Assembly (NCBI RefSeq): GCF_000143965.1
Contig: NC_014365.1
Coordinates: 771,501-835,500 of the forward strand
Length of the DNA stretch: 64,000 bases
Direction: 5' to 3'
Source of the DNA: Desulfarculus baarsii DSM 2075
GTDB lineage: Bacteria > Desulfobacterota > Desulfarculia > Desulfarculales > Desulfarculaceae
A program made the position numbers and the translations under genes. Shown one piece after another: positions 51,591 to 53,861 of the stretch; the stretch's first letter is position 1, and every line of letters starts with the position of its first letter. The notes under the pieces were generated by a model. The model saw nothing but the letters and a program-made list of their open reading frames with translations, was not told the origin of the DNA and ran no database searches.

Positions 51591-51630
51591 GCTCGGGCGG
51601 CCGCGCGCCGCCACATCACCAGACGCCATG

Positions 51631-51673
51631 ACGGCGGCGCGACGGACGTCATTCCGTCGCGCCGCCGTTTTTT
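51631..51673 (+). terminator. terminator of the serine operon
   Basis: Perfect 16-bp arms (51631-51646 and 51653-51668) with a 6-nt loop, followed by TTTTT. Confidence 0.92.
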
Positions 51674-51724
51674 CTTTGGCTCGGCCGGCCTTGCCATCGG
51701 CCCGGCGCGGACTTATATTGAGAG

Positions 51725-51852
51725 TGCTGCACGGGGGCATCCTGCCCCGTGCAGCATCGGCTTGGCAAAAGCGCGGTTTTGCCAACCCTCGCAAATCGCT
51801 TGCCTAATCAGGCTCGCGATTTGGCGCGCCGTCCATGGCGCGCTTCGGCTGC
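51725..51852 (+). ncRNA. candidate structured RNA or repeat element with four hairpins
   Basis: Four consecutive inverted repeats: 12-bp perfect stem (51725-51736 with 51745-51756); 9-bp stem (51762-51770 with 51777-51785); a two-part stem with CAAATCGC outer arms (51792-51799 with 51816-51823) and inner GCCT/AGGC; and 7-bp GCGCGCC/GGCGCGC (51824-51830 with 51837-51843). A GCTGC downstream (about 51848-51852) could pair with GCAGC at 51751-51755. No start codon or long T run. No match to a known family is recognised. Confidence 0.45.
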
Positions 51853-51990
51853 TACACGACGGAATTCATGTTTCACAGGTTACTATCTGTTTTTACAACA
51901 TTTGTTATGTTTCATCGTGCAGCAGCCTCATATTGGTGGAAACCATCCGGCTCGGGCGGGGGTAAGGTCAATAATATTCAGGGGGTTTTC

Positions 51991-52401
51991 ATGAGTGCGG
52001 ACGAAAAGGGATTCACCGTGGTCGATCGCCGGCCCTTCGACGACCAAGGCAACGCGCGGGCGGCCGAAGACGGCGACGACCAGGCGCAACCCGCGGCGGC
52101 GGCCGACGATCCGGCCTGCCAGGAACGAAAGGCCGGCGCCAAACACTGCCAGATGCCGCCGGTGGAGTTTTCCGGCCTGGTGCTTTCGCTGGCCACGGCG
52201 GCCATGACCCACATGGGGGCCATGCCCCAGCCCGACGGTCAGGGGGAGGCCGAGCCCGATCTGGTTTTGGCGCGGCACTCCATCGACACCCTGGGCATGC
52301 TAAAAGAAAAAACCGCCGGCAACCTCAGCGACGACGAGCGCCGGCTGCTGGACAACATCCTCACCGACCTGCGCCTGGCCTACGTGCAATTGTGCCGCTG
52401 A
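51991..52401 (+). CDS. DUF1844 protein
   Basis: The 136-residue protein has a disordered, acidic N-terminus (about 1-50) and the DUF1844 core FSGLVLSLATAAMTHMG, DLVLARHSIDTLGMLKEKT and NLSDDERRLLDNILTDLRLAYVQL. Members are small helical proteins of unknown role in Deltaproteobacteria. ATG at 51991 follows GGGGG, and the frame upstream has no support. It lies 23 bp before the htrA-type gene, and so is probably cotranscribed with it. Confidence 0.75.
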   Translation: MSADEKGFTVVDRRPFDDQGNARAAEDGDDQAQPAAAADDPACQERKAGAKHCQMPPVEFSGLVLSLATAAMTHMGAMPQPDGQGEAEPDLVLARHSIDTLGMLKEKTAGNLSDDERRLLDNILTDLRLAYVQLCR

Positions 52402-52424
52402 GGGCGCGAGGGGAGTTCATAGCC

Positions 52425-53861
52425 ATGCAAAAACGCGCCGTAACCCTGGCCCTTTGCTGGGCCCTGGCCCTGGTCCTGATCGGGCCGCCGCGCCTGGCCC
52501 AGGCCGCCGAGGCCGGACCTCAACTGCCCAGCTTCGCCGATTTGGCCGAGCGGGTCTCGCCGGCGGTGGTCAACATCCGCATCGTCAAGACTGTCACGGG
52601 CCGGCCGCTGATGGGCCTGTTCGGCCGCGAGCGCGGCCAGGGCCACCCCAGCCCCGAGGAGCTTTTCGAGCGCTTCTTTCGCGGGCCGGGCGGTGGCGGC
52701 GACCAGCCCCGCGAGTTCAAGGAGCGCTCGCTGGGTTCGGGCGTGATCATCGACCCCGAGGGCTACGTCCTGACCAACAACCACGTCATCGACGACGCCG
52801 ACGAAATCGTCGTGCGCCTGAAGGGTGAAAAGGAGCTGCCGGCCAAGATCATCGGCCGTGACGCCAAGACCGACCTGGCCCTGATCAAGATCGACGGCGA
52901 GAAGAACCTGCCCGTGCTGCCCCTGGGCGATTCGGACAAGCTGCGCGTGGGCGATTGGGTCTTGGCCGTGGGCAACCCCTTTGGCCTGGAGCACACCGTC
53001 ACCGCCGGCATCATCAGCGCCAAGGGCCGCGACATCGGCGCGGGGCCCTACGACGACTTTTTGCAGACCGACGCCAGCATCAACCCCGGCAACTCGGGCG
53101 GGCCGCTGATCGACCTGGGCGGGGCGGTGGTGGGCGTCAACACGGCCATCGCCGCCCAGGGCCAGGGCATCGGTTTCGCCATTCCGGTCAACCTGGCCAA
53201 GAAGATCGTGGGCCAACTGCGCGAAAAGGGACGGGTCGTGCGTGGTTATCTGGGCGTGTACTTCCAGCCGGTGACGCCCGAGCTGGCCCAGCAATTCGGC
53301 CTGAAAAAGCCCGGCGGGGCGTTGGTGGCCGAGGTCATCGCCGACGGGCCGGCCGCCGAGGGCGGGGTCAAGCCCGGCGACGTGATCGTGCGCTTCAACG
53401 GCCGCGAGGTCAACGACTGGCACGAACTGCCGGCGATGGTGGCCGATACGCCCGTGGGCCAGGAAGTGGAAATGACCGTGATGCGCGGCGGCGATGAAAA
53501 AGACCTGGAGATCACCGTCGGCGAACTCAAGGACGGCGAGGCCCAGGCGCAAGCGCCCCAGCGGCAGTCCGAGGACAAACTAGGCCTGAGCCTACAGGAG
53601 CTGACGCCCGATCTGGCCCAGCAACTGGGCGTGGGCGCCAGCAAGGGCCTGGTGGTCACCGGCGCGCGCGAGGGCGGCCCGGCCGCCGAGGCCGGTCTGC
53701 GCAAGGGTGACGTCATCGTCGAGGCCGACCGCAAGGCCGTCGAGACACTGAAGGATTTCCAAGGGTTGGTGGATGGCCTCAAGCCCGGCGACGGCCTGCT
53801 GGTGCTTTATCAGCGCGAGGGCCGCAGCCTCTACACGGTGATCAAGGCGCCCAAGGAGTAG
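52425..53861 (+). CDS. degP: periplasmic serine protease DegP/HtrA
   Basis: The 478-residue protein has a signal peptide (about 1-27, cut near AQAAEA), a trypsin-like domain with His120 (TNNHVID), Asp150 (TDLALIKI) and Ser224 (GNSGGPL), and two PDZ domains (about 275-370 and 390-475). It degrades or refolds damaged periplasmic proteins. A GGGGAG Shine-Dalgarno 11 bases before the ATG fixes the start. IspE follows within 2 bp. Confidence 0.94.
   Translation: MQKRAVTLALCWALALVLIGPPRLAQAAEAGPQLPSFADLAERVSPAVVNIRIVKTVTGRPLMGLFGRERGQGHPSPEELFERFFRGPGGGGDQPREFKERSLGSGVIIDPEGYVLTNNHVIDDADEIVVRLKGEKELPAKIIGRDAKTDLALIKIDGEKNLPVLPLGDSDKLRVGDWVLAVGNPFGLEHTVTAGIISAKGRDIGAGPYDDFLQTDASINPGNSGGPLIDLGGAVVGVNTAIAAQGQGIGFAIPVNLAKKIVGQLREKGRVVRGYLGVYFQPVTPELAQQFGLKKPGGALVAEVIADGPAAEGGVKPGDVIVRFNGREVNDWHELPAMVADTPVGQEVEMTVMRGGDEKDLEITVGELKDGEAQAQAPQRQSEDKLGLSLQELTPDLAQQLGVGASKGLVVTGAREGGPAAEAGLRKGDVIVEADRKAVETLKDFQGLVDGLKPGDGLLVLYQREGRSLYTVIKAPKE

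Follow-up and report, generated by a model that had tools for sequence, protein, structure and literature searches.

The intergenic region between the serA terminator and the DUF1844-degP operon of Desulfarculus baarsii carries a run of consecutive perfect stems that no gene explains, thereby raising the question of what this structured DNA is and how it came to lie there. The region belongs to the window analysed here, that is, the whole stretch of 64,000 nucleotides. An earlier note, made from the letters alone, had offered a small RNA, a repeat element or the leader of the DUF1844-degP transcript. The reading that joins our results is that a five-hairpin MITE, moved by an IS5-family transposase, was inserted immediately downstream of the −10 box in the DUF1844-degP promoter, and that the pairing of its hairpins B, C and D was kept as DNA; we regard this reading as very probable. 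The features used below are as follows, with positions given in the window.

51630 to 51675, plus strand: serA terminator, a 17-bp stem and a T tract, outside the element (inverted repeats)
51691 to 51719, plus strand: predicted DUF1844-degP promoter, TTGCCA - 17 nt - TATATT, adjoining the insertion (same position, same spacing and similar hexamers in 19 genomes)
51715 to 51719, no strand: left target duplication ATATT, also the final bases of the −10 box TATATT (exact match to 51930-51934)
51720 to 51929, plus strand: whole MITE, with ends set by 23 aligned genomic copies and target duplications
51720 to 51733, plus strand: left terminal inverted repeat GAGAGTGCTGCACG (inverted-repeat analysis; same terminus as the IS5-family element L291 of Dethiosulfatarculus)
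51725 to 51756, plus strand: hairpin A, 12-bp stem 51725-51736 / 51745-51756 with TCC in the loop (folding, inverted repeats)
51762 to 51785, plus strand: hairpin B, TTGGCAAAA/TTTTGCCAA, 9-bp stem 51762-51770 / 51777-51785 (folding, covariation)
51792 to 51823, plus strand: hairpin C, 8+4 bp, 51792-51799 / 51816-51823 and inner 51802-51805 / 51810-51813 (folding, covariation)
51824 to 51843, plus strand: hairpin D, GCGCGCC-GTCCAT-GGCGCGC, 7-bp stem 51824-51830 / 51837-51843 (folding, covariation)
51847 to 51927, plus strand: hairpin E, arms 51847-51864 / 51910-51927, 83% paired (inverted repeats; conserved in copies)
51916 to 51929, minus strand: right terminal inverted repeat, reading GAGGCTGCTGCACG on the minus strand (matches IS5-family ends of sister genera)
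51930 to 51934, no strand: right target duplication ATATT (sequence; exact match to 51715-51719)
51991 to 52401, plus strand: DUF1844 gene, the first downstream (gene position)
52392 to 53861: gene of a Do-family (DegP/HtrA) protease, after DUF1844

The stems of 12, 9, 8+4 and 7 bp that had been described were all present at their positions, and the fold of 51700-51880 reached −84.8 kcal/mol (z = −3.5), with none of 200 shuffles equally stable. The extent 51725-51852 proposed for them held in part: the hairpins lie inside the element and make up its left two thirds, but the end at 51852 was too early, and the real limits are 51720-51929 (210 bp). The ends of the element are GAGAGTGCTGCACG and CGTGCAGCAGCCTC, and alignment of the copies places them at GAGAG...CCTC. 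In total, the element has five hairpins, the first and last of which contain the terminal inverted repeats; hairpin A holds the left end plus an inverted copy of it, and hairpin D is the best-conserved part in distant relatives. An alternative pairing of GCAGC in the first hairpin with a downstream GCTGC had also been suggested; GCTGC is present near 51849, but as part of hairpin E, which closes at 51910-51927. The possible outer stem turned out to be the pairing of the terminal inverted repeats, as the outermost inverted repeat pairs 51719-51733 with 51916-51930 (87%).

The genome of D. baarsii (one contig, 3,655,731 bp) was searched by BLAST with 51700-52000 as the query, and many matches with 91-95% identity and two near-constant endpoints were obtained. 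A core pattern search located 23 loci, bearing out the idea of extra copies, and 22 full-length, near-identical copies and additional shortened ones are distributed around the chromosome. Exact 5-bp direct repeats flank 19 of the 23 aligned copies and are nearly all distinct among them (ATATT at the window copy, GATCC, ATGCG, ATAAT, AATAG and others); the chance of at least 19 exact duplications in 23 is approximately 1e-42, even with p = 1/256. The four exceptions include one near match (AAAGT/AAACT) and a shortened copy, L032, which has GATTT/GATTT at its real ends. As target duplications of exactly 5 bp flank 19 of the 23 aligned copies, the element is a MITE, present in many copies with terminal inverted repeats and target duplications of fixed length, and the guess of a repeat element was correct. 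Open reading frames across the 210 bp are short and overlapping only, with no transposase gene among them.

Shortened forms of 172, 137, approximately 110 and 41-42 bp retain both ends, and most have duplications (AAAAC at the 137-bp form and AAGGC at the form of approximately 110 bp). The 41-42-bp forms in the same genome (L060, L061, L062, L063 and L067) consist of the single hairpin A with complete ends; four are flanked by the 5-bp duplications ACTTC, GGTTC, GTTTT and AAGGC, and the fifth (42 bp) has none. The copies differ by 5-10%, which suggests that the MITE family may be inactive.

Short, palindromic and intergenic sequences in many copies are also typical of REP/BIME-type repeats moved by a tyrosine (Y1, RAYT) transposase. 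However, known REP sequences are 20-40 bp long with a GTAG or CGTC foot (PMC3733652), differing from the present element in length and ends, and its terminal repeats with 5-bp duplications are of the DDE transposase type, which contradicts a RAYT; this origin is extremely improbable. The element represents a new MITE family, and literature searches of open-licence papers returned no description of it. The MITE closely resembles the bacterial MITEs mobilised by IS5 elements (PMC10969869), which are likewise 50-500 bp long, non-coding and intergenic, with terminal inverted repeats, target duplications, stable stem-loops, size variants and ends common to an autonomous IS. Unlike those, it comprises five consecutive hairpins and a covarying core common to families that differ in their ends and in duplication length, and its complete mobile form can be reduced to one hairpin of 41-42 bp.

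Among other systems, bcr1 is a structured mobile repeat of approximately 150 bp, and in this respect is like the element here, but it belongs to another phylum and was compared by description only. It occurs in the Bacillus cereus group and is listed as a MITE (PMC3733652). Compared by its published description (PMC10969869), Chunjie of Geobacter uraniireducens (235 bp) is alike in size, in its 178-235-bp variants and in its intergenic copies, and its host is, as here, a former deltaproteobacterium. QMITE1 and QMITE2 of Coxiella burnetii share the wide size range (QMITE1, 39-400 bp) and have transcripts with strong predicted structure, whereas QMITE2 has 7-9-bp duplications and TIRs that are 23-29 bp long, compared with 5 bp and approximately 14 bp here (PMC10969869).

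The position of the window copy was evaluated by comparison with relatives. Upstream of DUF1844, 19 genomes of the family share the promoter TTGCNN-N17-TATA(G/T)T, at a distance of 48-67 nt from the gene in most relatives versus 271 nt here. Subtraction of 215 nt (the element and one duplication) leaves 56 nt, within the range of the relatives, thereby indicating insertion into the promoter region. The element starts at 51720, one base past the end of the −10 box (51719). Judged from this comparison, the window copy lies between the predicted promoter and the beginning of the DUF1844-degP operon, as an insertion that left both putative promoter boxes in place. It probably forms the leader of the DUF1844-degP transcript, and the earlier suggestion to this effect gains support from its position, given that the conserved promoter ends at 51719. 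Transcription would start within hairpin A, at approximately 51726, and the mRNA leader of approximately 265 nt would open with a stable hairpin.

The location next to a conserved promoter and ahead of the operon, together with the stable fold, would also suit a cis-regulatory leader that the host keeps for this operon. Relatives with the same promoter, however, have a short leader with no such element there, and more than 20 further copies of the sequence are found between genes unrelated to this operon. An influence of the element on degP would be a side effect of its insertion; we consider a host-kept leader very unlikely. As a natural insertion, the window copy separates a protease operon from its predicted promoter, and the effect on expression is directly measurable. 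A different hairpin element was observed in the serA-DUF1844 intergenic region of genome G011 (L335) and is absent from the related G006 (L332), the two forming a filled/empty pair at one locus; the loop of hairpin D in L335 is inverted (ATGGAT).

Candidate partners of the MITE were found in sister genera, where IS5-family elements have the same terminal repeats. Dethiosulfatarculus sandiegensis (G001) contains a 1,291-bp insertion sequence (L291:931-2221) with an intact transposase of 345 aa, the ends GAGAGTGCTGCACAG / GAGAGTGCTGCGTAA and the terminus GAGAGTGCTGC. The transposase belongs to the IS5 family (NCBIfam NF033581, E 1e-69, 235 bits versus a cut-off of 140), and of the 63 genomes of the class, 15 gave matches to it, some of them weak or partial. 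Homologous IS copies have ends such as GAGGCYGATGCACGG and GAGGCCGATGCACGG, and three are flanked by exact 5-bp duplications (L304, TATTT; L306, ACCTT; L308, TCATT); the intact L291 itself has no clear target duplication. A second insertion sequence of D. sandiegensis, L298, has the ends CAGGCTGTTGAAAAA, adjoins CTAG on one side and shares these ends with a further group of hairpin elements, which occur in Desulfocarbo and G020.

In the complete genome of D. baarsii (G000), no DDE_Tnp_1 transposase (PF01609, E up to 1) was detected, tblastn with a related transposase gave no match, and terminal-repeat pairs revealed no autonomous copy. Terminal-repeat pairs 1-3 kb apart were also not found in G006 and G011. 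The ends and 5-bp duplications of the MITE are common to IS5 elements of sister genera and no such element is present in D. baarsii; on these grounds we infer that the mobilising enzyme was a transposase of the IS5 group of L291, now absent from the host. Such a transposase would have moved the copies in trans, and its gene would since have been lost from the genome. If it was ever in the same genome it was lost, or it was never resident, and membership among MITEs does not depend on it.

The question of whether the pairing serves DNA or RNA was addressed using a covariance model of hairpins B, C and D (R1, 15 sequences), with which 63 genomes of the class were scanned. Matches were obtained in 11 of them, with 10 to more than 60 per genome in most, and were limited to six genera (the family and a sister family) plus one weak match. 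Two-sided changes affect 11 of 31 pairs in the R1 seed and 27 of 31 among 81 distinct cores, the latter in an alignment fitted to the model, a level that none of 500 shuffles reached and that lies well beyond the slid controls. Within the genome of D. baarsii, only one of 72 stem pairs has a two-sided change; thus it is the comparison of families, not of recent copies, that reveals the covariation. The covariation search that had been proposed as a check yielded strong compensatory changes, the lack of which had been named as a refutation; they point to DNA palindromes more than to RNA.

An RNA read from the plus strand would tolerate G-T mispairs, and one read from the minus strand would tolerate A-C mispairs. 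The stems of the 81 cores contain 37 G-T and 38 A-C mispairs. The copies of D. baarsii gave 90 G-T versus 33 A-C in the predicted structure, which speaks against pairing kept as DNA, but the prediction allowed G-T and the copies are not independent. The orientation of these copies to neighbouring genes, called by a codon-usage script, is mixed (8 co-directional, 5 opposite, 6 divergent and 4 convergent). In Rfam, a tRNA was the sole match in the window at the gathering threshold, and nothing credible appeared at permissive thresholds. The equal mispair counts, the mixed orientation and the lack of an Rfam match favour DNA palindromes, and speak against the small RNA that had been guessed. The pairing of the core thus looks maintained at the DNA level and not as RNA. 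Its symmetry would most likely be kept for the sake of transposition or else by the repair of imperfect palindromes; covariation in DNA is compatible with both selection on cruciform or single-stranded hairpins and such repair.

The loops nevertheless bear on a structured small RNA gene or, in another form, a mobile CsrA-sponge RNA read from the minus strand. The TCC (GGA) loop is conserved in hairpins A and D, which alone show GGA in a loop when the minus strand is read (CAGGATG and ATGGAC), a feature of CsrB-type RNAs. This loop persists across families with different stems; CsrA would bind such loops in pairs. In CsrB the repeats have the sequence CAGGA(U/A/C)G, and the SELEX site of CsrA is RUACARGGAUGU with GGA in a hairpin loop (PMC7652899). 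The stems here exceed the length that CsrA prefers. Likeness to the CsrB/RsmZ sponges is confined to the GGA loops if the minus strand is read, whereas the copies here are transposon-like without a wobble bias; A-C does not exceed G-T, contrary to a minus-strand RNA, and orientation to genes is mixed. At the window copy, the strand with GGA runs antisense to the gene on either side. Most element-bearing genomes have csrA, and the genus g3 (8 genomes) has neither csrA nor the element. However, the g3 absence concerns one clade and hence one event, approximately 30 csrA-bearing genomes have no element, and 42 matches occur in G009 (97% complete) without any csrA match. The CsrA-sponge reading is weakly supported at best, and an RNA gene of either kind is unlikely. 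The eight g3 genomes, mostly nearly complete, are themselves unusual in a class that mostly has csrA.

The inserted MITE shares its core with elements of several other kinds. Around the cores, we found ends of the GAGA... type with 5-bp duplications, AGCAGGCTGTTGAAAAAG adjoining CTAR, AGCTTGCTGACAAAG in Dethiosulfatarculus with similar terminator-like hairpins on both sides, and ATACCAATATGC in G006. The B-C-D core is a long-lived module that also occurs within elements with other ends. Contigs were scanned with the hairpin D motif, and distant arrays with the same A-B-C-D-E layout were recovered: Mariprofundus erugo has 42 matches (best E 7e-10), Magnetococcales 12, Rhodanobacter 9, a Lysobacterales genome 5 and Arenimonas 4. 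The consensus core of D. baarsii is 75% identical to that of Mariprofundus over 79 nt (BLAST, E 8e-10 with a nominal search space). Mariprofundus elements are 150 bp long with exact 4-bp duplications in 6/6 (TTAA or CCAG), and those of Arenimonas are 152 bp long with exact duplications in 2/4 (CTAG, TTAA). As judged from sequence, the case for homology of the core to Mariprofundus and Magnetococcales is good; for the putative homology to Arenimonas and Rhodanobacter, the layout and hairpin D are the sole basis. Plasmid, phage and E. coli collections contained no match to the element, and viral contigs none to the hairpin D pattern. Many single matches to this pattern in other phyla resemble random hits or hits in coding sequence.

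A MITE generally has just its ends in common with a partner IS, and its interior is not conserved. Here the interior is conserved and the ends vary: duplications of 5 bp or 4 bp, and several terminal repeats unrelated to each other, accompany the core in distant groups, which suggests that the hairpins matter for spreading. A tentative extension, which we hold to be possible but doubtful, is that the core is a modular selfish unit that has passed from one kind of IS5-type end to another and among distant groups of bacteria (Desulfarculales, Mariprofundus, Magnetococcales and Xanthomonadales). It would be kept because a host or transposition factor recognises its hairpins, with their conserved TCC/GGA loops, once they are exposed as cruciform or single strand. 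Natural test constructs are available down to the 41-bp element.

Several further arrangements of hairpins were observed. At seven loci of Dethiosulfatarculus sandiegensis (L007, L017, L024, L104, L108, L120 and L121), elements of the superfamily are flanked on both sides by similar terminator-like hairpins, as would be expected if an entire terminator of approximately 20-30 bp were duplicated upon insertion. In Desulfarculaceae bacterium PIR-30 (L155:2237-2796), five such hairpin units form a tandem array with a spacing of 119 bp. Selenomonadaceae RGIG8298 (L144, L159, L164, L165, L176, L198, L202, L208 and L209) has a different repeat, starting ACTTTCTTT...AAAGAAAGT, with two hairpins and TCC in the loops, including GGCGCGCC-GTCCAT-GGCGCGC. 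Another intergenic repeat with an outer stem occurs in Steroidobacteraceae, Halieaceae, Morganella and others (L142, L194, L178, L200, L206 and L217); it combines a hairpin like TACGTCCCTGTA with the same hairpin D, and its minus strand is near the CsrA SELEX consensus.
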